This document shows, in pieces, positions 48,534 through 59,334 of a DNA stretch of 64,000 nucleotides (positions within the stretch are counted from its first letter, which is position 1; the number at the start of each line of letters is the position of its first letter). The notes beneath the pieces are model-generated. The model had not been told where the DNA came from and did not search any database. It was given only the letters and a program-made list of their open reading frames with translations. The DNA comes from Streptomyces formicae (GTDB taxonomy: Bacteria; Actinomycetota; Actinomycetes; Streptomycetales; Streptomycetaceae), in assembly GCF_002556545.1 (NCBI RefSeq), contig NZ_CP022685.1, positions 310,001 through 374,000 of the forward strand, in the 5' to 3' direction. A program made the position numbers and the translations under genes.

Positions 48534-50633
48534 TCACCGCGCCTCGACGGCGGGCAGCAGCGCCAGGTGTTCGGTCCACACGAGCCGGAACCGCAGCGCG
48601 GTGGAGACGACCGCCTGGCGCAGCCAGTTGCCGCCCGAACGCCCCGACGGCGACTGCTGGTTGCGTACGCCCAGCTTGTTCCCCGCGATGTACTCGATGT
48701 GGAAGTTGACGGCGGCCGGACTGATCCTGCGGCAGGAAGCCAGCGGGCTCAGCCTGCGGACGATCTCGGCGGTGCTGGGGATGGCCATCGTGGCGGGCGC
48801 GCGCAACTGGGGCTCGCACAGGGCGACGAGGACCAGGAAGTACTTGGCCCGGGGGTCCAGGGCGAACGCCGGGTCGGGCCGCGCGGCGGGGTCCGCGTCG
48901 GGGGCGTACGTGGTGGCCGCGTACGCGTTGGCCGGGGTCGGCGCGCTCACGGACAGGTACGTCGACCCCGTGGAGGACGGCAGGCTGATCCTGGCGTGCG
49001 GGAATGGGACCGGCATGTCGAGCCGCCCTGGGGGCACGCAGACGTACTCGCCGCCGCCCTCCTCGTTCTCCACCACGTAGGTGCGGGCCCGGCTGAGGTT
49101 GGTGATGAACCACAGGCCGTCCTCGGCGGCCCTGATCCGTCCCGCGATGGGTTCGCCGGTGGGGTCGTCGACGGAGATGTCGGCAGGGGCGCCGGTCAGG
49201 CCCCGGCCGAAGGTGACCTCCTGGTTGCTGCGCACCTCGACGGTGCCGGTGCCGGTGGCGGTGTCCGCGCCGGGCAGGACGATCCGCAGGTCGGACGACG
49301 TGCCGTTCGTCGAGGCTCCGTCGAGTGGGTCGGGGAGCGGCTCCGGGTCCGGTCGTGGCTCGGGGTCCGAGCGCGGGCCCGGCCCTGAGCGCGGGCCCGG
49401 CCTGCGGTCCGCCGTCAGGCCGATCCGGAGGTGGGAGAGGCCCTGGAGGAAGTTGGACGGGCGCCGCACGGCCTCGCCCTCGACCTCGATCTCCGCGACC
49501 CGTTCGACCGCGGCCGCCAGCACGCACTTCACCTCCAGGCGGGTCAGGGTGGCGCCGACGCAATAGTGGGGGCCGCCGCCGAAGGCGATGTGCGGATTGG
49601 GGCGGCGGTCGAGCCGGAAGGTGTCGGGGTCGGCGAAGACCTTCTCGTCGCGGTTGCAGGAGGGGTACCAGACCGCGACGCGGTCGCCCGCGGCGATCCT
49701 GACGTCGCCGAGCACGGTGTCCTCCGCGGCGGTGCGCAGGGCGTGCAGGGCCGGTGAGGTCCACCGCAGGATCTCCTCGACCGCCGTGTCGATCAGCCCG
49801 GGGTCCTCCCTGAGCCTTCGCCACACGTCGGGCCGACGGGCGAAGACCAGCAGGGCCCCGGCCAGCGCGTGCGAGGTGGTCTCCAGGCCGCCGTTCATCA
49901 GGCCGTCGCAGTTGAGCAGGATCTCGTCGTCGGTCAACGGGACGCCGTCCGGGGCGGCTTGGGCGAGCGCGGAGACGATGTCGTCGCCGGGCTCCTCCCT
50001 GCGCAGGTCGAGCAGGTCCCCGAAGTGGCCGAATATCCGGGTGTGCGCGGCGGTGCGGGCGGCCTCGCCCGCGGGTCCCGGGTCGGAATCGTCGAAGGCT
50101 TCCTCCATCGTGCGGGCCAGCTCGTCCTGGTCCTCATCGGGAACACCGAGGAGGTCGAACAGGGCCCACCGCGGCACCTCGGCGGTGAGTTCGGCGATCG
50201 CGTCGAAGGTCGTGCCGCGGGCGAGGAGGGCGTCCAGGCGTTCTTCGACACGGGCGCCGAGCGTGGGGACCAGGGCGGCGACGGAGCGCGCGTTGAACCA
50301 GGCCTGGTGCACGCCGCGAAGGCGGCGGTGCTCGGCGCCGTCGGAGACGACGAGCATGCGTCCCGCCGCGGCCCGCACGCCCGCGGGGTTGGCCTGGAGG
50401 CGCATCCCCTGGACGGAGACGAAGCTCGTGGGGCGTCTGATCACCTCCGAGCCCTCGGCATGGGTCACGACCGACCAGAAGCCACCGGCCAGCTCCGACT
50501 CCGTCCACGCCACCGGATGCGCCGCGCGCGCCTGCCGCCACATTTCCAGGTGCGTCTCGTCGGTGTACAAGTAGGGGTCGGCGAGGTCCGCGGCAACTCG
50601 GCCGGCCGTCCATCGAGGAGTCCGAATTTTCAT
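48534..50633 (-). CDS. Cytochrome P450 fused to FHA-like and helix-turn-helix-like C-terminal domains
   Basis: 699 residues in one uninterrupted frame from ATG 50633 (AAAGGGA upstream). Residues 1-410 are a complete CYP: I-helix MNGGLETTSH (about 246-255), E-x-x-R as EEILRW (about 286) and haem loop FGGGPHYCVG with Cys358. A Pro/Asp/Arg-rich linker (about 420-450) leads to an FHA-like beta domain (VTFGRG, DISVDDPTG, FITNLSRARTYVVEN; about 465-530), then a C-terminal region (DPRAKYFLVLVALCEP, IPSTAEIVRRLSPLASC, AVNFHIEYIAGNKLG) resembling the winged-helix part of actinobacterial FHA proteins. Oxidises a pathway intermediate by inference; the fused part may tether, sense or regulate. It ends three bases from the convergent NRPS stop. 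Confidence 0.9.
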   Translation of the reverse strand: MKIRTPRWTAGRVAADLADPYLYTDETHLEMWRQARAAHPVAWTESELAGGFWSVVTHAEGSEVIRRPTSFVSVQGMRLQANPAGVRAAAGRMLVVSDGAEHRRLRGVHQAWFNARSVAALVPTLGARVEERLDALLARGTTFDAIAELTAEVPRWALFDLLGVPDEDQDELARTMEEAFDDSDPGPAGEAARTAAHTRIFGHFGDLLDLRREEPGDDIVSALAQAAPDGVPLTDDEILLNCDGLMNGGLETTSHALAGALLVFARRPDVWRRLREDPGLIDTAVEEILRWTSPALHALRTAAEDTVLGDVRIAAGDRVAVWYPSCNRDEKVFADPDTFRLDRRPNPHIAFGGGPHYCVGATLTRLEVKCVLAAAVERVAEIEVEGEAVRRPSNFLQGLSHLRIGLTADRRPGPRSGPGPRSDPEPRPDPEPLPDPLDGASTNGTSSDLRIVLPGADTATGTGTVEVRSNQEVTFGRGLTGAPADISVDDPTGEPIAGRIRAAEDGLWFITNLSRARTYVVENEEGGGEYVCVPPGRLDMPVPFPHARISLPSSTGSTYLSVSAPTPANAYAATTYAPDADPAARPDPAFALDPRAKYFLVLVALCEPQLRAPATMAIPSTAEIVRRLSPLASCRRISPAAVNFHIEYIAGNKLGVRNQQSPSGRSGGNWLRQAVVSTALRFRLVWTEHLALLPAVEAR

Positions 50634-50677
50634 GGTTCCCTTTCTGGAATCCATACGTAGCCTCCGGCTATTCGTAA

Positions 50678-50694: not shown

Positions 50695-50778
50695 TAACCC
50701 TCCAGGGGTGACACTCACTCAGCGACCCGTTAGCCTACGTTGAGCGCTTCAACCATCGTCATCCACCAGGCGGTTCTG

Positions 50779-51654
50779 ATGTTCAAGGAAGCCACCCTTT
50801 ACTCTCCGGTCATCAATAACGAACACGGACGCGTGTCCGTGATCTTCGCGAAGGACCACCCCGGATACCAGGACCGGCCGTATCAGGAGCACCGGGCCCG
50901 CATAGCCGAACTCGCTTTACGGCACAGGAAGGGCGAACCGGCACCCGACATTCCTTATACGGAGGCCGAACACGAGACGTGGCACACGGTGAGCACGGAA
51001 TTGTCCGCCAAGCACCGCGTGCACGCCTGTCGTGAATTCATCGAGGCGAGCGAGCTGCTCGACCTGCGCCACGAACGGCTTCCGCAGCTCAGCGACGTCT
51101 CAGCACGCGTATACCCGCTCACCGGATTCACCTTCGGCCCGGCCGCGGGCCTGGTGGCGCAGCGTGATTTCTACGGCTCGCTGGCCGATCGAAGGTTTCA
51201 GGCGACCCAGTACATACGCCATCCTTCGTTTCCTCGGTTTTCGCCGGAACCGGACATGATCCATGAGGTGGTGGGGCACGGCACACACCTTTCAAGTAAT
51301 CGATGGGCGACGCTGTACGAACTTCTCGGGAAGACGGTTCGCCGTCTTGAGTCCGACGAGGCGGTCAGCCTCGTGTCCCGCGTCTTCTGGTTCACCATCG
51401 AATACGGACTGGTGAAGGAGGACGGCAGGACCAAGGTCTGCGGAGCCAGCCTGCTGTCCTCCTGCGGAGAAATGGACTACTTCCTCGGCGCGGACATCAA
51501 TTCGTTCGACGCTGCGGCCATGGGACGTCAGGGCTACCTGGTGGAGAAATACCAGCCGGTCCTGTTCAGGGCCGAGTCCTTCAACCATTTCGAGGACTTC
51601 CTCAGCGAATTCCTGACCAGCATCGACGACGACAGCGAACTCGTCGCGGCCTAG
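50779..51654 (+). CDS. Pterin-dependent aromatic amino acid hydroxylase, with a TTA codon
   Basis: 291 residues from ATG 50779. Catalytic-domain-only member of the phenylalanine/tryptophan hydroxylase family: the iron site is SPEPDMIHEVVGHGTHL (His162, His167) and FWFTIEYGLVKEDG (Glu208), with the His-to-Glu spacing of bacterial phenylalanine hydroxylase. Other blocks are VYPLTGFTFGPAAGLVAQRDFYGSLADRRFQATQYIRH and GASLLSSCGEMDYFLG. In a biosynthetic cluster such enzymes supply p- or m-tyrosine (the pacidamycin PacX precedent) or hydroxytryptophan; regiochemistry cannot be read here. Leu47 is TTA (50917-50919). The coding GC is lower than that of neighbours. No upstream ribosome-binding site is strong; an in-frame TTG at 50740 is the alternative start. 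Confidence 0.92.
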   Translation: MFKEATLYSPVINNEHGRVSVIFAKDHPGYQDRPYQEHRARIAELALRHRKGEPAPDIPYTEAEHETWHTVSTELSAKHRVHACREFIEASELLDLRHERLPQLSDVSARVYPLTGFTFGPAAGLVAQRDFYGSLADRRFQATQYIRHPSFPRFSPEPDMIHEVVGHGTHLSSNRWATLYELLGKTVRRLESDEAVSLVSRVFWFTIEYGLVKEDGRTKVCGASLLSSCGEMDYFLGADINSFDAAAMGRQGYLVEKYQPVLFRAESFNHFEDFLSEFLTSIDDDSELVAA

Positions 51655-51670: not shown

Positions 51671-51701
51671 CCCGGCCGGTTCACGACCGGCTCCGGCCGG
51701 G
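51671..51701. terminator. Possible bidirectional terminator between hydroxylase and amidohydrolase genes
   Basis: GC-rich interrupted inverted repeat: CCCGGCCGGT pairs with ACCGG and, after a bulge, CCGGCCGGG. It lies just beyond the hydroxylase stop and overlaps the last codons of the convergent amidohydrolase. No T-run, so the call is weak. Confidence 0.35.
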
Positions 51702-52649
51702 GGCCTTCGGTACGACGCCTGCCGGGCGGCTCGCGGGAGCGAGCACCCGGAGCAGGTTCTCGTGGAGCAGCAGCGCGCGGTCGCGCCGAGGGACGCCGTC
51801 GAAGACGGTCGGTCCCTCGACCACCTCGCGCATCGTGCGGCGCAGCCCTCCGGACATCCGCCCGAGCGGCCAGTCCGTACCGAAGATCACCTTGTGGTTG
51901 ATGCCCATCCGGAACAGCCGGTTGAGGTGGTGCGGCCAGCTCGGCAGGGTGGCGGAGCTGGCGAACCCGCCGATGTCCAGGTACACGTTGGGCCGGTGCG
52001 CCGCGAGATAGGCCCCCGTCTCCACGTTGGTCACCCCGGCGTGGCCCAGGACGAAGTCGACACCGGGGAAGTCGCGGGCCGCCTGGTCTATGTGGAGCGG
52101 GTGGGCCAGTTCGGTGTCGAGGGTCGGCACGCTGGGGCCGGTGTGCACGAAGACCGGCAGCGAACGGGCCGCGCAGATCTCGTAGTAGGGATACAGGCTC
52201 CGGTCCGAGGGCGAGTAGCCGCACGGCGGGTAGAGCTTGATGCCGTCGAAGCCGTAGTCGTCCAGGGTCTTCTCGAAGAACCGGAGGTTGCCCGGGCCGT
52301 GGCGGGGGTCGATCCCGATGTAGACCCAGAACCGCCCGGGGTGCCGCAGCCGGATCCGGTGGTGCCGCTCGGCCATCTCCTCGGGGGTCAGCGGGCAGGC
52401 CATCCGGTGGCTGAAGTCGGGCACGAGGAGCACCGATCGGTCGATCCCCGCCCGGTCCATCTCGGCGACCAGGCCGTCGGCGAGGTGGTCCTGGTGCTGC
52501 GCCTGGTAGCCGTCCGCGATCCGGCCGGGGTCCGGCGCGGGGCCTCGTGCGGACAGCCTGCTGTGGACGTTCTCCGCCACGCCCTCCACGAAGGCCGGCG
52601 GGACGAAGTCGGTGGATGCCACATGGCAGTGGCCGTCGTAGACGATCAC
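51681..52649 (-). CDS. Amidohydrolase-2 family enzyme with intact metal site
   Basis: 322 residues from GTG 52649, overlapping the carrier-protein stop (GTGA). TIM-barrel amidohydrolase of the ACMSD / resorcylate decarboxylase branch. Metal and catalytic residues are in place: DGHCH (His7, His9), GIKLYPPCGYSPSD, VFVHTGPS (His), LGHAGVTN (His) and FGTDWPLG (Asp259). Likely a hydrolase or decarboxylase acting on a pathway intermediate. It is closely paralogous to the protein encoded two genes upstream (same KLYPPCGY-PSD-LYPY, ARDFPGVDF-LGH-GVT and AHRPNV-LDI blocks), with a carrier protein gene between them. Last gene of the seven-gene operon. Confidence 0.88.
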   Translation of the reverse strand: MIVYDGHCHVASTDFVPPAFVEGVAENVHSRLSARGPAPDPGRIADGYQAQHQDHLADGLVAEMDRAGIDRSVLLVPDFSHRMACPLTPEEMAERHHRIRLRHPGRFWVYIGIDPRHGPGNLRFFEKTLDDYGFDGIKLYPPCGYSPSDRSLYPYYEICAARSLPVFVHTGPSVPTLDTELAHPLHIDQAARDFPGVDFVLGHAGVTNVETGAYLAAHRPNVYLDIGGFASSATLPSWPHHLNRLFRMGINHKVIFGTDWPLGRMSGGLRRTMREVVEGPTVFDGVPRRDRALLLHENLLRVLAPASRPAGVVPKAPGRSRS

Positions 52650-52897
52650 CGCAAGCAGTGCTCCACCAGGCCCCGGATGCTGACGCCGTCACCCGGCTCG
52701 AAGGTCGAGTAGTCGAACTCCCGGTCGCTGCGCTCCTCCAGGTAGGAGATGAGGCCGACCAGCGCCATCGAGTCGAGCAGACCGGAGTGGGTCAGTTCCG
52801 TATCGGCCTTGAGCTCGGCGACCTCCACCTCCCCCTCGTTCCAGTTCTCCACCCACGCGACGAGATCCTTCTCCACCGCCGAGACGTCCTCGCTCAC
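52646..52897 (-). CDS. Stand-alone acyl/peptidyl carrier protein
   Basis: 83 residues from GTG 52897. The four-helix carrier fold is recognisable by the phosphopantetheine site LTHSGLLDSMALVGLISYLEE (Ser in the D-S-M motif, about residue 41) and the C-terminal FEPGDGVSIRGLVEHCL. It is coupled by GTGA overlaps to amidohydrolases on both sides and lies two genes from an AMP-dependent ligase, which is the likely loading enzyme. It could therefore hold the substrate on which the amidohydrolases, aminotransferase or desaturase act, and deliver it to the NRPS condensation domain. Confidence 0.9.
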   Translation of the reverse strand: MSEDVSAVEKDLVAWVENWNEGEVEVAELKADTELTHSGLLDSMALVGLISYLEERSDREFDYSTFEPGDGVSIRGLVEHCLR

Positions 52898-53916
52898 GGC
52901 CGACCACCCCTTAGCTCCGCGGATTTCCGCCCCATCAGGCGGAGGCTGTTGCCGCTCATGATCATTTTCCGTTCGGCCTCCCGCAGTCCGGCCACGGCCG
53001 GGGCTCCTCGGGAGAACTCCTTCAGCAGTCCCCCGAGCGACTCCGAAAGACGGAAGGACGGCCAGCAGGTACCGAAGAGGATCTTGTGCGAAATCCCGGC
53101 CCTGAAGAGCCGGTTGACATGGGTCTGCCAGCCGTCGGCGCTGAGCACCGAGTGGAACTGGCTGATGTCCAGGTGGACGTTGGGCCGGTGGGCGCAGAGG
53201 TACGCGGCCTCGTCGACGTGCGTGACCCCGCCGTGGCCCAGGATGAAGTCGACGCCGGGGAAGTCCCTGGCCGCCCGGTCCACGAGCAGCGGGCTGCCGA
53301 AGCTGAAGTCCAGCGGCCCCCAGCCGGGACCCGTGTGGGTGAGCACCGGGATGCCGTAGTGGGCGCAGCGCTCGAAGTACGGGTAGAGGCGCGGGTCGCT
53401 CGGCTCGTATCCGCAGGGCGGGTAGAGCTTCATCCCGGAGAATCCGTACTCCGTCACGCACCGCTCGAAGAGGTCGATGCCGTCCTGCCCGCCCCGTGGG
53501 TCCACGCCCCAGAAGACGTGGAACCGGCCCGGGTGACGGCGGTTCACGCGGTCGTGCAGCGCGGCCAGTTCGGGCTGGGACAGCGCGCACTCGGCCGCGT
53601 GCGAGTAGTCGGGCGCCACGAGGAACGCCTGGTCGACGCCCGCCTCGTCCATCTCCGCGACCAGTTGGTCCGCGTCGTCGTCCGCGTACAGGGAGAAGAC
53701 CTGGTTGCGCACGCGGTCGGGGCGGCCACCGAGACCGTAGGCGTCGAGCCGGTGGTGGACGTTGGCGGCCTGGTGCTCGACGAAGGAACGCGGGATGGCG
53801 AGCAGGCTGGCCAGGTTGACCTGCGCGTCGACGATCGGCGGCGCGGCGGGTGCCGTCCCCGGGGCCGGGTCCGGGTTCTGGCGCGCGTCCGGGTTCGGGT
53901 TCGGGTTCGAGGTCAC
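52894..53916 (-). CDS. Amidohydrolase-fold protein with degenerate metal site (pseudoenzyme candidate)
   Basis: 340 residues from GTG 53916, coupled to the ligase gene. The first 27 residues are Asn/Pro/Asp-rich and disordered. The rest aligns with the other amidohydrolase of this operon, but the metal-binding H-x-H is replaced (DAQVN; Gln32 and Asn34 instead of His) and the catalytic Asp of GTDWP becomes Cys284 (GTCWPSF). Later His residues (VLTHTGPG, LGHGGVTH) remain. Loss of three of the five ligands suggests no metal-dependent hydrolysis; a scaffold or regulatory partner of the intact paralog, or a different chemistry using Cys284, are both possible. Confidence 0.87.
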   Translation of the reverse strand: MTSNPNPNPDARQNPDPAPGTAPAAPPIVDAQVNLASLLAIPRSFVEHQAANVHHRLDAYGLGGRPDRVRNQVFSLYADDDADQLVAEMDEAGVDQAFLVAPDYSHAAECALSQPELAALHDRVNRRHPGRFHVFWGVDPRGGQDGIDLFERCVTEYGFSGMKLYPPCGYEPSDPRLYPYFERCAHYGIPVLTHTGPGWGPLDFSFGSPLLVDRAARDFPGVDFILGHGGVTHVDEAAYLCAHRPNVHLDISQFHSVLSADGWQTHVNRLFRAGISHKILFGTCWPSFRLSESLGGLLKEFSRGAPAVAGLREAERKMIMSGNSLRLMGRKSAELRGGRP

Positions 53917-55424
53917 CGGGACTCCGTCCCTTCGGCGGCCGTGCCCGCGCCGCGCACCGTGTCGGCGAAGTGCCGCGCCACCGTGGCCCTGCTCAGCTTC
54001 ATGTTCCCCGTCATGAAGCGTGCGTCGGAGCGCAGTTGCCGCTCGGAGAAGATCACGGATGCGACCCGCTGGTGGGCGTCGAGCCCTCGGTTGACCTCGT
54101 CGACGCGTGCCCGCACCTTGGCGGGCAGGGCGGCGTCCTCGGGATCGGTCGTGGTGATCACGGCGCCGAGCCTGCCGGTGTCGGGGGTGGGCACCACGAT
54201 GATCTCCGCGATTCCCTCCACCCCGGCGAAGTACTCCTCGATCTGCGCGGGGTGCACCTTGCGCCCGTTGCCGAGGACGATCACGTCCTTCTTGCGCCCG
54301 ATGAGCGTGAGGAAGCCGTCGTCGTCGAGTCTCCCGAAGTCGCCCGTGGCGATGCTCCCGTCGGGGCGGTAGGTCTCGTCTGCGCCGTCGTCGGGGACCT
54401 CGAAGTAGCCGCTGCTCTGCGGGAAGGGGCGCTTCAGGATCACCTCGCCGTCGTCGAGGATCCGGACGTGACTGGGGTCGAGGAGCCTGCCGACGGTGCC
54501 GAGCCGGTGCGCTTCCTCGGTGTTCCAGGCCACCATGCCGGTCTCGTTGAGGCCGTAGACCTCCAGGAGCTTCACGTCACGGGCCCAGAACGCCTCCAGC
54601 GTCTCCCTCCTGATGGGCGCCATGCCCGTGATCAGGAAGCGGACGGCGCCGCCCAGGAAGTCCCCGAGGGTGCCCGTGCCGCCGGACTTGAGGTAGACCT
54701 GCAGCATCGTGTCGTAGAAGACCGGCGGGCCGATCAGGAACGTGGGCCGTTCGCTTCTGACCGCCTGGAAGACGCGCTGGTAGGGGGCGAGCGTCAGATC
54801 GGCGCCGAGCCACAGACAGCAGTAGAGGGACAGCCGCTGCTGGTAGTTGGAGAGCGGCAGGAAGACCAGATGACGGTCGCTCGCGGTGAGGCGGTACGTC
54901 TCGATGAACTGGTTGATCACGTACTCGGAGCCCGGGGCGGTGATGTTCAGCCCCTTGAGCTTGCCCGAGGTGCCCGAGGAGTAGACGAGGCTGTGGACGT
55001 GGTCGCGGTCCACGCGTGTCGCGGTGTCGGGCACGACGTCGGGTCCCGGCAGCGCGTCCGGGGCGATCGCCGAGGGGCAGTCGGCCGTGAGGCCGTCGGC
55101 GATCAGCAGGGCGAGCTCGTGCCGGGCGACGAAGGCGGCCGGGTCCGCTATCGCGGTGTCCTCGGGGAAGGCTTTGACCACCGCGCCGCGCATCAGCGTC
55201 GCCAGGTCCCACAGGGCCCAGTCGATGCCGCTGGGCGCGCGGATGCCGACCAAGTGCCCCGGCTCGACCCCGGCGGCCGCCAGTCGCTCCGCGCGCTCGG
55301 TGGCGAGCTCGTGCAGTCGGCTGTACGTGACGACACGCCGCTTGCCCGAGAGGTCGATCTCGGTCAGCCGTGCGTCGGTGTGCTCGCGGTAGCGCTCGCC
55401 GAGCTCCGCGATGTTCATGCTCAC
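53913..55424 (-). CDS. AMP-dependent acyl/aryl ligase, carrier-protein loading candidate
   Basis: 503 residues from GTG 55424 (GGAG five bases upstream; overlaps the previous stop as GTGA). ANL superfamily adenylating enzyme: P-loop SLVYSSGTSGKLKGL (about 165-180), LPLSNYQQRLSLY, YGLNETGMVAWNT (A5), SIATGDFGRLDDDGFL (A7/A8) and LIGRKKDVIVLGNGRKV; the C-terminal catalytic Lys is probably in MTGNMKLSR. The hinge and substrate pocket resemble fatty-acyl/aryl-AMP ligases more than NRPS A domains. It probably activates a carboxylic acid and loads it on the carrier protein two genes downstream. Confidence 0.88.
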   Translation of the reverse strand: MSMNIAELGERYREHTDARLTEIDLSGKRRVVTYSRLHELATERAERLAAAGVEPGHLVGIRAPSGIDWALWDLATLMRGAVVKAFPEDTAIADPAAFVARHELALLIADGLTADCPSAIAPDALPGPDVVPDTATRVDRDHVHSLVYSSGTSGKLKGLNITAPGSEYVINQFIETYRLTASDRHLVFLPLSNYQQRLSLYCCLWLGADLTLAPYQRVFQAVRSERPTFLIGPPVFYDTMLQVYLKSGGTGTLGDFLGGAVRFLITGMAPIRRETLEAFWARDVKLLEVYGLNETGMVAWNTEEAHRLGTVGRLLDPSHVRILDDGEVILKRPFPQSSGYFEVPDDGADETYRPDGSIATGDFGRLDDDGFLTLIGRKKDVIVLGNGRKVHPAQIEEYFAGVEGIAEIIVVPTPDTGRLGAVITTTDPEDAALPAKVRARVDEVNRGLDAHQRVASVIFSERQLRSDARFMTGNMKLSRATVARHFADTVRGAGTAAEGTESR

Positions 55425-57103
55425 GCGTTCTCCAACTCCTTTTCCAGACTGGCCAGCAGATCAGCGAGACGCTCCTGGACGAACAGGGCGATCCGGCCGC
55501 CGAGCATCTCCTCGTAGCCACCGCTGCCGGTGTCCCAGGCGATGTCGACCTCGACGGTGCAGCCGCCGTCGGGCGTCGGAGCCACCACGACGGTGCGGGC
55601 CAGCTCCTGCCACAGCCAGCACGGCTCCGCCCGCAACACGACCCCGTCGTCGTTCAGTTCGACCCGGTCGGACCAGACCACGTCGTCCTGTCCGATCCGG
55701 CCGCCGAAGTCCTCCTCCGACTCCGTCCGGTCGGCCCTGGTGTCCCGGGCGAACGGGTCGAGCAGCCGCGGCCGTTCGTGCAGCAGCCGAAGTACGGCCT
55801 CGGCGGGCCTGGCCAGTGGGACGGTGCGGGTGAGCGGGGACAGCTCCGCCGTCGGGCGCACGCTGCCCCGGGCCGCGTCGGCCTCGGCGAGGACGCCTTC
55901 GAGGACGCCCAGCCCCCGTTCGAGGTCGGCGTCGGAGATGACCAGCGGCGGCTGGACGCGCAGCACCCGGGGGTTGTAGAGCGAGTACGTGGAGGTCACG
56001 CCCTCCTCGATGAGGCGTCCGAGGACGAGTCCGGTCAGGGCCTCGTCCTTCAGCTCGAGGCCGTGCATCATGCCGACGCCGCGGTGCTCCGCGATCACCT
56101 CCGGGTAGCGGTCGGCGACGGCGGAGAGCCGCGCGCCGATCCGCTCCCCCTTGGCGCGGACGTCGGCCAGGAACTCCTCGTCCGACGCGATGGCGATCGT
56201 CTCCAGGCCCGCCCGGCAGGCCAGCGGGTTGCCGCCGAGGCTGGAGCCGAAGGTCGAGGGCAGTTCGCGCAGGACCTCCCAGACCGCCTCGGTGCCCAGC
56301 ACGGCGGACAGGGCGAGCATGCCGCCGCCGAACGCCTTGCCGACGCAGAGCAGGTCCGGGGTGATGCCGTACCGCTGGTAGGCGAAGAAGGTGCCGCAGC
56401 GGCCGAACGCGGTCTGCATCTCGTCGAGTACGAGCAGCGCGCCCGCTTCGGTGCAGAGCCGTCGGACCTCGCGCAGATAGTCCGGCGGCGGCGGGACGAC
56501 TCCGGCCTCCGCCTGGACGGGTTCGAGCAGCACCGCTGCCACGGAGTCGTCCAGGGCCTCGGCCAGGGCGTCGAGATCACCGAAGGGCACCTGCTCGAAT
56601 TCGGCCATGAGCGGGCCGAGGCTGGCCTGGTGTTCGGGCCGGGCGGCGGCGCCGAGCGTGGCGAACGTCTTCCCGTGGAAGCAGCCGAGCGCGCTGATGA
56701 ACCTCGGTCGTCCGGTCGCCGCCCTGGCCAGCTTCAGAGCGTTGTCGATGGTCTCGCCGCCCCCGTTGGCGAGATAGGCGAACGGCAGCTCCTGGTCGGT
56801 GACTTCGGCGAGCCGTTCGGTGAGGCGGATGGACACCTCCTCGAACATGATCTTGCTGCTGTTCAGGACTCCCGATGCGAGCTGATCGCGGAGCGCGCCG
56901 ATGATCCGGGGGTGGGAGTAGCCGAGGGACTGGTTGCCGTACTGGTCGAACATGGCGAGGAAGGACTGCCCCGCGTCGTCGAGGACGGTGGATCCTTTCC
57001 CCACGCCCTGGACACCGCACCCCATGACGAAGGCCATCTTCGCGTAGGTGGGGTGGTTGTGGGCCGCCTTAGCCTCGGCCAGTACCTGCCGGTATGTCCG
57101 CAT
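55421..57103 (-). CDS. Class III aminotransferase fused to a C-terminal SRPBCC-like domain
   Basis: 560 residues, about 130 more than the family norm. Residues 1-410 are a PLP aminotransferase: YLANGGGETIDNALKLARAATG, LLVLDEMQTAFGRCGTFF and the Schiff-base Lys256 in LLCVGKAFGGGM. Residues about 420-560 (LARPAEAVLRLLHERPRLLDPF, DVVWSDRVELNDDGVVLRAEPC, GGCTVEVDIAWDTGSGGYEEML, closing helix FVQERLADLLASLEKEL) have the alternating strands and long C-terminal helix of START/SRPBCC ligand-binding domains. The fused domain could bind the hydrophobic amine acceptor or product. The start overlaps the acyltransferase gene by 35 bases. Confidence 0.88.
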   Translation of the reverse strand: MRTYRQVLAEAKAAHNHPTYAKMAFVMGCGVQGVGKGSTVLDDAGQSFLAMFDQYGNQSLGYSHPRIIGALRDQLASGVLNSSKIMFEEVSIRLTERLAEVTDQELPFAYLANGGGETIDNALKLARAATGRPRFISALGCFHGKTFATLGAAARPEHQASLGPLMAEFEQVPFGDLDALAEALDDSVAAVLLEPVQAEAGVVPPPPDYLREVRRLCTEAGALLVLDEMQTAFGRCGTFFAYQRYGITPDLLCVGKAFGGGMLALSAVLGTEAVWEVLRELPSTFGSSLGGNPLACRAGLETIAIASDEEFLADVRAKGERIGARLSAVADRYPEVIAEHRGVGMMHGLELKDEALTGLVLGRLIEEGVTSTYSLYNPRVLRVQPPLVISDADLERGLGVLEGVLAEADAARGSVRPTAELSPLTRTVPLARPAEAVLRLLHERPRLLDPFARDTRADRTESEEDFGGRIGQDDVVWSDRVELNDDGVVLRAEPCWLWQELARTVVVAPTPDGGCTVEVDIAWDTGSGGYEEMLGGRIALFVQERLADLLASLEKELENA

Positions 57104-57743
57104 ACTCGGAGGATCCCCTCGCGTACTCGTCGAAGTCCTGGAAGAAGTACCTGAGCACCGCGTTGCCTTCGGCGCCCAGCTCCTTGCAGAGGCGCACCGC
57201 CTCCGGCACGTCGAGAGCGGCCACCATGCTCAGCGGTGCGCCGGTGAAGCGGGGGTCCAGGTAGGGACCGTGCACCGGCACGAAGCCGATGCCGGTGTAG
57301 AAGTCGCGCAGCCGCCCCTCGCCGTCGTCGGTGAAGAAGTCGCCCATGATGCACGTCACTTGGTGCGTCCGGACGCTGTGCACCAGCGCCTCGCGCATCA
57401 GCCGCATGCCCACCTTCCGGTTGCGCACGCCCGGCAGCGTCATCAGGTGGCCGAACTCCACGAGGCGGTGCCCGGCGGAGCGCAGCCGGCCGATGTCGGC
57501 CACGTCCTCGCAGGGCAGTCCGGCGGGCGAGTCAGGGACGATCTTTATCGTGCCGATCGCCTCGGATCCGGCGTACGCGAGGAGGTAGTAGGCCCGGGCG
57601 TCGAACTTGTCGAAGGTGTCGGCGGTCTGCGCGGTGTCGGTGAGCCGCTCCTGGTCCCGCACGTACACCGCTTCCCGCAGCCGCAGCACATCCGCGTCCT
57701 CGGCAGGTGTGCGGGCCCTGCGGAAGGTGATGCCCTCGGCCAT
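57069..57743 (-). CDS. GNAT-fold N-acyltransferase, FeeM / N-acyl amino acid synthase-like
   Basis: 224 residues from ATG 57743, behind GGAAGG. The N-terminal DVLRLREAVYVRDQERL and YYLLAYAGSEAIGTIKIVPDS blocks resemble FeeM and autoinducer-synthase (LuxI-like) GNAT proteins, which take acyl groups from acyl-ACP. The central VEFGHLMTLPGVRNRKVGMRLMREALVHS is the acyl-donor binding region, and CIMGDFFTDDGEGRLRDFYTGIGF follows. A role in N-acylating an amine or amino acid of the pathway, possibly from the adjacent carrier protein, is inferred. In-frame codons upstream come from a short repeat and look untranslated. Confidence 0.72.
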   Translation of the reverse strand: MAEGITFRRARTPAEDADVLRLREAVYVRDQERLTDTAQTADTFDKFDARAYYLLAYAGSEAIGTIKIVPDSPAGLPCEDVADIGRLRSAGHRLVEFGHLMTLPGVRNRKVGMRLMREALVHSVRTHQVTCIMGDFFTDDGEGRLRDFYTGIGFVPVHGPYLDPRFTGAPLSMVAALDVPEAVRLCKELGAEGNAVLRYFFQDFDEYARGSSEYADIPAGTGRG

Positions 57744-57755
57744 GGTCCCTTCCTT

Positions 57756-57787
57756 CCGTCCGTCCACGTTCCTCCGTCCGTCCACGT
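57756..57787 (-). repeat. Direct repeat of 14 bp between desaturase and acyltransferase genes
   Basis: CCGTCCGTCCACGT occurs at 57756-57769 and again at 57774-57787 (period 18), filling most of the 51-base spacer between two genes of the operon. It may be a replication slip; it also creates the spurious N-terminal extension of the acyltransferase frame. Confidence 0.6.
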
Positions 57788-57794
57788 GCGGGGG

Positions 57795-58706
57795 CTACTT
57801 GCTGCCGATGAAGCTCCTGAAGTAGGCGAAGTAGCCGGGGTGGTAGTGGCGCAGTCGGTCGCGCACCTCGACATGGAGGTCCGGCAGCCGCTCGATGGGA
57901 AGGTTGGGCATCAGATGGTGCTCGACGTGGAAGTTGTTGCCGTTGGTGTACCAGGTCAGCAGCCAATTGGACTTGATCGTCCGGGTGTTGGCGAACGGCG
58001 AGCGGTCGAGCGTCTCGCAGCGGAAGTGCTCCGGCAGCTCGATCAGGGCGTGCATCGGAGCCGCGACCACCACCATCGGCAGCACCCAGAGCCAGAGGAC
58101 CGCCGGGCTCGCGAACACCACCGAGAGCACGGCCGCGGCGACCAGGGCGGCCACGGCGAGCAGGTGCTCGACCCGGATGCGGCGGGTGTTGACGGCGCTC
58201 TCGCCGTCGAAGTTGCTGCCCCGCAGCGCCTTCCCGACGCCGACGCCGAACTGCCAGTAGTGGTAGGCCATGGTGAAGCGGGCGAACCAGGTCAGCGCGG
58301 TGCCGATCCGGCTGCCGCCATCCCCCGCGCCGTACTGGTCCCCGTAGTCGAAGAACTCCCGGTTCCCCGGGGTGCCGAGGTCGCGGTGGTGGCGCATGTG
58401 GGCCACGCGGTAGGCGGTGTACGAGATCAGCATCGGCAGACCGAGCAGCACGCCCACCACGCGGTTGGCGCGCCGGCCGCGGTAGGCGAGGCCGTGCAGG
58501 GTCTCGTGCTGGAGTTCCGCGGCGTGCGCGAACATGAGCCCGATCAGCAGGACTCCGCACAGCCGCAGTGACAGCTGCGACTGGAGTGCCAGCCAGCATC
58601 CCGCAGCCGTGATCAAGGCGCAGACCAGCACTTTAAGCGTGAATAATCGGCCGCGAATCTCGCCCCGAATTGCGTTTCGCACTTCACGGATGGCTACTGC
58701 ATCCAT
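57795..58706 (-). CDS. Membrane fatty acid desaturase family protein, with a TTA codon
   Basis: 303 residues from ATG 58706. Di-iron membrane desaturase/hydroxylase with the three histidine boxes: HETLHG (H-x3-H), HMRHHRD (H-x2-HH) and HVEHHLMP (H-x2-HH). About four hydrophobic segments lie between them. Substrates in such clusters include acyl chains or aminoacyl groups, often carrier-bound; the next genes include an acyltransferase, ligase and carrier protein. Leu21 is encoded by TTA (58646-58644), so translation of the first gene of the seven-gene operon should depend on bldA. Confidence 0.92.
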   Translation of the reverse strand: MDAVAIREVRNAIRGEIRGRLFTLKVLVCALITAAGCWLALQSQLSLRLCGVLLIGLMFAHAAELQHETLHGLAYRGRRANRVVGVLLGLPMLISYTAYRVAHMRHHRDLGTPGNREFFDYGDQYGAGDGGSRIGTALTWFARFTMAYHYWQFGVGVGKALRGSNFDGESAVNTRRIRVEHLLAVAALVAAAVLSVVFASPAVLWLWVLPMVVVAAPMHALIELPEHFRCETLDRSPFANTRTIKSNWLLTWYTNGNNFHVEHHLMPNLPIERLPDLHVEVRDRLRHYHPGYFAYFRSFIGSK

Positions 58707-59334
58707 CGACGTCCGGGCATCGCACCCCGCCGCTCCGTCCGCTGGGCGTCCCATTAATCCCCCTTATCGACCGACCGCTGTCGGGAGCAATGAAGTGCGG
58801 GGCTGCGGTGGACGACTGCAGCCGTCTGCATGGAAATCGCCACTGCCTCGAGGCAGGGTCCTGTGACGGAGATCTGCTTCATCTCTCCGGCGTTCCGAAT
58901 ACGCTCGAACCGTGTTGCGTCGGGAATCTCTACGGCCAGGACAGCTGTATCTCCGGTGCGCCAGCGGCGCACCCGCATGCCATCTTCATTGCGGTCGGCA
59001 CCCCCAGTCAAGGCCCCCTTTCCGAACTCCGGCATTCCGGTGGTTCGGCACGGGAGCAGGTCCCGAAGTCGGTGCAAAATGGGGCCGATCCGGTGTCTCG
59101 GGCAGGTTCCTGCGGCCCCCGGAAATCATCACTCAGGCATGTATAGTCTACGATTGCCCGAGCCGGATTCGTCACTCTCGGTATACCGAGCGGAATCGGA
59201 ACGCCCCCTGAGGGGCCGTCATACGGTTCCGTCTCTCCCCACGCAAAGCGCATCCGCGGACACCCGTCCCGCATCAAGGACGTCCCCCGTCGCACGACGG
59301 CGGAAGGGGACGTCAACAGCTTGCTGGAGGATTC
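58707..59334. other. Long divergent intergenic region between the desaturase operon and the methyltransferase gene
   Basis: About 630 bases with GC near 60%, clearly below the neighbours, and no ORF with the usual G/C third positions. Short frames exist (for example 58754-59077 on the minus strand) but their codon use matches random sequence. It must hold promoters for two divergent transcripts: ATTAAT near 58753 and TATAGT near 59142 are candidate -10-like boxes. A perfect 14-base palindrome at 59177-59190 is the clearest operator candidate. The region may be a regulatory hub, or a remnant of transferred DNA. Confidence 0.6.
59177..59190. promoter_or_regulatory. Perfect 14-bp palindrome CTCGGTATACCGAG
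   Basis: A perfect two-fold palindrome 145 bases upstream of the methyltransferase start, in the 630-base divergent region. Size and symmetry fit operators of dimeric regulators such as TetR, GntR or MarR types. No such regulator gene is visible in the window; it may lie beyond the right edge. Confidence 0.45.

Follow-up and report, generated by a model that had tools for sequence, protein, structure and literature searches.

The locus described here lies in Streptomyces formicae, within a window of 64,000 nucleotides (positions 310001-374000 of the single 9.61-Mb contig NZ_CP022685.1). It is a run of seven minus-strand genes coding, in order, for a desaturase-like protein, a FeeM-like GNAT, a class III aminotransferase, an AMP ligase, an amidohydrolase whose presumed metal site is degenerate (AHdeg), a carrier protein, and a second, intact amidohydrolase (AHint). 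A preliminary description of this DNA, made from its letters alone, had placed the carrier gene between the two amidohydrolase copies, and both coordinates and gene order bear this out (Table 1).

The two amidohydrolases are paralogs, as had been proposed from the long blocks of sequence that they share: a single comparison aligns them over 305 residues with no gap, 145 of which are identical (48%; E 7e-102), and both exceed the 26.4-bit cut-off of PF04909 (Amidohydro_2), with 130.9 bits for AHdeg and 122.4 for AHint. In AHdeg, D-A-Q-V-N and FGTCWP stand at the places of D-G-H-C-H and FGTDWP in AHint. The Q32-V-N34 and C284 of the former, already recognized in the preliminary description as replacing an H-x-H motif and an Asp, are confirmed by sequence and alignment as the counterparts of H7-C-H9 and D259 in the latter. 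AlphaFold models built from eight sequences have a mean pLDDT of 69.7 for AHdeg and 73.4 for AHint. The N-terminus of AHdeg (window 53836-53916) is an Asn-Pro-rich low-complexity segment whose length and letters differ between relatives.

Seven loci carry an AHdeg. Besides that of the window, these are the loci of Streptomyces silaceus (L001), Streptomyces sp. McG3 (L002) and Streptomyces mashuensis (L003), which came from a scan of a genome-contig collection, and those of G388, G326 and G1064, which came from genome searches that also returned G035, counted once together with the S. mashuensis record. S. silaceus is the closest named relative at the locus, and G1064 belongs to another family of the same order. 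The genes for the AMP ligase, AHdeg, the carrier and AHint follow each other in this order at all seven loci; the entire seven-gene cassette is present at six, and G1064 shows the last four genes, its contig beginning inside the ligase gene. The phylogenetic survey that had been proposed as a check thus finds the degenerate copy together with both the intact copy and the carrier in every case (7/7). We could not find any AHdeg without AHint in the genome samples searched, though these overlap and in several of them only the best five candidates per genome were scored, so that the absence of a lone AHdeg is not proven. A scan of viral contigs gave no relative, and plasmid records gave four matches, one of them close (Nonomuraea).

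Concerning the metal site, we aligned 32 rows: seven AHdeg, seven AHint, seven amidohydrolases from loci with a single copy (see below), and 11 outgroup rows. Six letters, namely a His-x-His motif, the Lys of KLYP or its counterpart, two further His, and an Asp, are present in all seven AHint, in all seven single copies and in the 11 outgroup rows. These six residues may hold two metals according to the scheme described for dihydroorotase, in which two His and an Asp bind an alpha zinc, two other His bind a beta zinc, and both metals share a carboxylated lysine (PMC3880350). The AHdeg proteins fail this pattern, having lost the His at position 34 in all seven cases, the Asp in six, and the His at position 32 in five. 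The letters assigned to the beta site (Lys163, His194 and His228) are retained in all seven, and on the two-metal scheme the losses fall on alpha-only letters and are not scattered. The metal site had previously been called destroyed, which holds for the alpha-site letters and is too strong for the site as a whole.

The AHdeg proteins form a graded series, from G1064 (H-x-N with the Asp kept) through G326 (H-x-N with Ser) to the other five, which combine Cys with either Q-x-N (the window, L001 and L003, all with the beta-site letters kept) or Q-x-Q (the remaining two). This pattern suggests that AHdeg may have lost, step by step, one half (alpha) of what is presumed to be a two-metal site, while selection held the fold and the beta half. 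Position 284 is thus Cys in five proteins, Ser in one and Asp in one, which weakens the earlier suggestion that Cys284 underlies a new Cys-based activity; with Ser in G326 and Asp in G1064, this residue is ruled out as a family-wide nucleophile.

Table 1. Genes of the cassette and key codons of AHdeg, with positions in the window.
Feature	Position	Strand	Evidence
AHdeg, degenerate PF04909 amidohydrolase paralog, 340 aa	52894..53916	-	Profile match and pairwise alignment
AHdeg Gln32 codon (aligned with the first HxH His of intact relatives)	53821..53823	-	Sequence and alignments
AHdeg Asn34 codon (aligned with the second HxH His of intact relatives; His absent from 7/7 AHdeg)	53815..53817	-	Sequence and alignments
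AHdeg Lys163 codon in KLYPPCGY, putative bridging carboxylated lysine	53428..53430	-	Lys in 32/32 alignment rows and 23/26 distant relatives
AHdeg His194 codon, putative beta-site ligand in the two-metal scheme	53335..53337	-	Kept in 7/7 AHdeg
AHdeg His228 codon, putative beta-site ligand in the two-metal scheme	53233..53235	-	Kept in 7/7 AHdeg
AHdeg Cys284 codon (Asp in intact relatives)	53065..53067	-	Sequence and alignments
Carrier protein, 83 aa, Ser43 in GLLDSM	52646..52897	-	Weak DltC-like match; PF00550 16.4 bits, under cut-off
AHint, PF04909 amidohydrolase with H7-C-H9, K138, H169, H203, D259	51681..52649	-	Profile match and alignment
AMP-forming ligase, presumed charger of the carrier	53913..55424	-	PF00501
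Class III aminotransferase with ~150 extra C-terminal residues	55421..57103	-	PF00202 match 35-404 of 560
FeeM-like N-acyl amino acid synthase (GNAT)	57069..57785	-	PF21926 57.9 bits, above the cut-off of 27
Membrane desaturase/hydroxylase family protein	57795..58754	-	PF00487; nearest NCBIfam model GntB, 65.6 vs 380 bits, far under cut-off

A tree of 25 rows recovers AHdeg as one clade (support 100/99), AHint as another (97/99), and the single copies as a third (100/99). Because AHdeg and AHint each form a separate clade, the copies split earlier than the lineages in which they are now found. Where it is resolved, branching agrees between the two, with G326 and G1064 outside and the other five together. 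Rates of nonsynonymous (dN) and synonymous (dS) substitution, which like the gene overlaps and the barrel-mouth analysis below were taken from the six pairs other than that of G1064, indicate similar constraint on both copies: between the window and S. silaceus, dN is 0.031 and dS 0.251 for AHdeg (dN/dS ~0.12), against 0.035 and 0.261 for AHint (dN/dS ~0.13), and at all five distances the lowest dN values among the seven genes are those of AHdeg, AHint and the aminotransferase. AHdeg is therefore an old, constrained paralog under selection, and the possibility that it is a decaying pseudogene is rejected by dN/dS and clade depth together.

Constraint extends to the mouth of the barrel. With loop limits set by hand from predicted strands, 39 of 63 positions in the barrel-mouth loops of AHdeg are invariant, against 100 of 239 in the rest of the protein (p = 0.007); the corresponding figures for AHint are 43/63 and 98/239. 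Differences that are fixed and specific to AHdeg showed no clear excess at the barrel mouth (4/9, p = 0.09).

The junctions between ligase and AHdeg, AHdeg and carrier, and carrier and AHint each have a four-base overlap in the window, with GTGA at both carrier junctions. The preliminary description had noted these overlaps correctly for the window and had deduced from them that the products are made in fixed ratio. Across six loci, taking the nearest start codon as the start, the overlap is present in five, four and five cases, respectively. Overlaps at these junctions are usual and not fixed, and since they vary between loci a constant stoichiometry does not follow from them and is unsupported. 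The carrier itself possesses the serine of the GLLDSM motif in the window despite a PF00550 score below the cut-off of 20.8 bits. Among the five of seven carriers that were scored, those of L001 (14.1) and L034 (19.4) also fall below the cut-off, and those of L003 (21.7) and L035 (21.2) are above it.

Residue loss, a retained half-site and selection together suggest that AHdeg is no dying gene and serves as a helper subunit or as an enzyme put to a new use. The explanation that we favour, with a probability of roughly one half, is that AHdeg has given up hydrolysis and joins AHint in a heteromer that works on a substrate bound to the carrier, serving there as a subunit that is non-catalytic or holds a ligand. 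We infer the heteromer, the tethering of its substrate and the reaction along the following lines. The AMP ligase would charge the carrier whose gene lies between the two amidohydrolase genes, and AHint would act on the tethered acid, for example by removing a protecting acyl group or opening a ring, while AHdeg would serve as its disabled partner subunit; the FeeM-like GNAT would then transfer the product off the carrier onto an amine, to serve the flanking peptide synthetases. Individual steps have precedents. FeeM and the GNATs SbzC and SbzI are described as using acyl groups that an adenylating enzyme has loaded onto a carrier (PMC6331615), and the roles proposed for amidohydrolases include deacetylation of intermediates tethered to a carrier (PMC4047045) and removal of an auxiliary leucine (PMC9838390). 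We found no paper on a carrier-linked amidohydrolase pair in the literature searched, which covers few subscription-journal papers.

Work on a carrier-bound substrate, as the preliminary description had proposed, is made plausible by a simpler ligase-carrier-amidohydrolase module at seven other loci, belonging to G265, G171, G024, G991, G1051, G407 and Nonomuraea gerenzanensis (stretches L036, L037, L038, L059, L063, L066 and L067; the analysis excludes L060-L062). Their amidohydrolase is 41-45% identical to the AHdeg and AHint of the window, and their ligase and carrier are likewise related to those of the cassette. They differ from it in what surrounds the module: the intact amidohydrolase is followed by a relative of Fe-dependent chlorinating enzymes, a second carrier-like gene and a KASIII-like gene, which replace the desaturase-like, FeeM-like and aminotransferase genes, and a GNAT comes after the KASIII-like gene in the five loci where the fetched stretch reaches that far. 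This arrangement, typified by L038:683-12250, is conserved among the seven, including the second carrier-like gene of 101 aa, and also encodes a 318-aa protein without Pfam match. The chlorinating enzyme of L038, the only one scored, is above the TIGR01762 cut-off; in G171 the match of the halogenase gene (L037:10443-11359) is divided between two adjoining segments that differ in frame. Near the loci of L036, L037, L038 and L063 lie asparagine synthetase- and TauD-like genes.

Several observations weigh against a heteromer with a disabled subunit. The seven loci just described have an intact amidohydrolase standing without AHdeg, and the module therefore exists without the degenerate copy. Sisterhood of AHdeg and AHint is weakly supported, at 79/49 in the 25-row tree and 82/74 in an earlier tree of 28 rows, which had 11 outgroup rows, seven of them omitted later to avoid long branches. 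Among 26 distant PF04909 relatives, 23 have all six residues and three lack ligands: L044 is without HxH, Lys and Asp, and L046 and L048 are without HxH, Lys and the strand-5 His, the Asp being kept. One of these three has a second copy about 4 kb away, and the other two show none within ~5 kb, so that ligand loss alone is no sign of a partner. Moreover, apart from the dinuclear oxygenases, the PF04909 enzymes that have been characterized are described as having one metal or none (PMC10811679), which makes the two-metal scheme an extrapolation from letters. Finally, the conserved barrel mouth of AHdeg is as compatible with ligand binding or with a reaction as it is with the role of a mere partner. 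A pocket binding nothing would be expected to relax, and the conserved mouth leaves room for a lone beta metal, a held ligand or a reaction at residue 284.

The alternative that survives best, although we consider it doubtful, is that AHdeg is a second, separate enzyme with one beta-site metal (Lys163, His194 and His228), in which residue 284 would be a ligand, an acid-base residue or a nucleophile, working on the same carrier-bound chain as AHint. The beta-site letters kept throughout and the conserved barrel mouth agree with this, as does the presence of Cys or Ser at position 284 in six of the seven proteins. Moreover, the QxN that three of them have in place of HxH is also found in the N-acetylglucosamine-6-phosphate deacetylase NagA of E. 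coli, which is reported to have just one metal, in the beta site (PMC6016474, PMC3880350). However, NagA belongs to another amidohydrolase family and, unlike the AHdeg of the window, needs its catalytic Asp; this residue is lost in six of seven AHdeg, and its change to Ala is reported to have abolished activity in two mycobacterial NagA enzymes (PMC6016474). In addition, Cys284 is not universal, and carboxylation of Lys163 is putative. A bolder form, which we hold to be unlikely, would make AHdeg an enzyme of a new type, with a lone beta metal and Cys or Ser at the Asp position, acting on an acyl chain on the carrier, the pair carrying out two successive steps.

Still less likely, in our estimate, is that AHdeg docks or chaperones the charged carrier, or else the ligase, and forms no stable complex with AHint. 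The constant gene order ligase-AHdeg-carrier-AHint (7/7) would suit such a role, whereas one would expect paralogs that are 48% identical without a gap to have a dimer surface in common. Last, it is highly improbable that AHint belongs to the O2-using dinuclear oxygenases of the ARO kind (AibH2, PtmU3, SfbO, LynB7), with AHdeg as an AibH1-like partner, since that group is described with D-x-H on strand 1 and, after strand 8, D-x2-H (PMC7782822, PMC10127204), and the H-x-H and D-x2-Leu of all seven AHint rule out membership.

For the favoured heteromer, the nearest known counterpart is the alpha-aminoisobutyrate hydroxylase AibH1H2 of Rhodococcus (PDB 6M1W, 8FUN), described as a heterotetramer of two PF04909 paralogs, encoded side by side, one subunit of which is thought to be non-catalytic (PMC7782822, PMC12141560, PMC10401708). 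Adjacent PF04909 paralogs, one of them apparently non-catalytic by its residues, are likewise found at all seven AHdeg loci, with the qualification that the G1064 copy keeps its Asp. The cassette pair differs from the reported AibH1H2 in that the latter has the ARO ligand set, a Mn/Fe cofactor, a Rieske partner and a free amino acid as substrate. AibH1 is also described as keeping a one-metal site (D-x-H, H, E, D), whereas AHdeg is without the alpha-site letters and a carrier gene separates the copies. Among these oxygenases, PtmU3 is described as needing no AibH1-like partner (PMC10401708). Dihydroorotase, from which the ligand scheme was taken, provides a further case in Aquifex, where the isolated subunit is reported to be inactive and to become active in complex with aspartate transcarbamoylase (PMC3880350); here the reaction is cyclic amide hydrolysis in pyrimidine synthesis, and the partner is not a paralog. 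The closest parallel for the substrate is Pya25/Cgc14 of the pyrrolamide antibiotics, an amidohydrolase proposed to deacetylate a carrier-tethered intermediate, for which the available text mentions no degenerate twin (PMC4047045).

If the heteromer is real, it would be a further PF04909 enzyme, beside AibH1H2, that is accompanied by a disabled twin, in this case within the assembly of a natural product, and the surviving intermediate states (H-N-D, H-N-S and Q-N/Q-C) would show how an enzyme may become a partner. If AHdeg instead works with a lone metal, it would represent new chemistry on a very common fold. In either case the cassette offers a compact, testable system.

Genes for peptide synthetases, for a P450 and for a biopterin-dependent aromatic amino acid hydroxylase are found near the cassette, on either side of it, and the cluster probably builds a peptide-like compound. 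The hydroxylase gene (window 50740-51654) adjoins that of AHint on the opposite strand and is also present in L001 and L003; no match to it was found in the L002, L034 and L035 stretches. The C-terminal ~290 aa of the P450 (window 48534-50654) have no Pfam match, and in S. mashuensis (L003:13286-15293) the P450 and this C-terminal part match as adjoining pieces in different frames. The extra C-terminal residues of the aminotransferase are likewise without Pfam hit, and matches in five other cassette loci extend through them.
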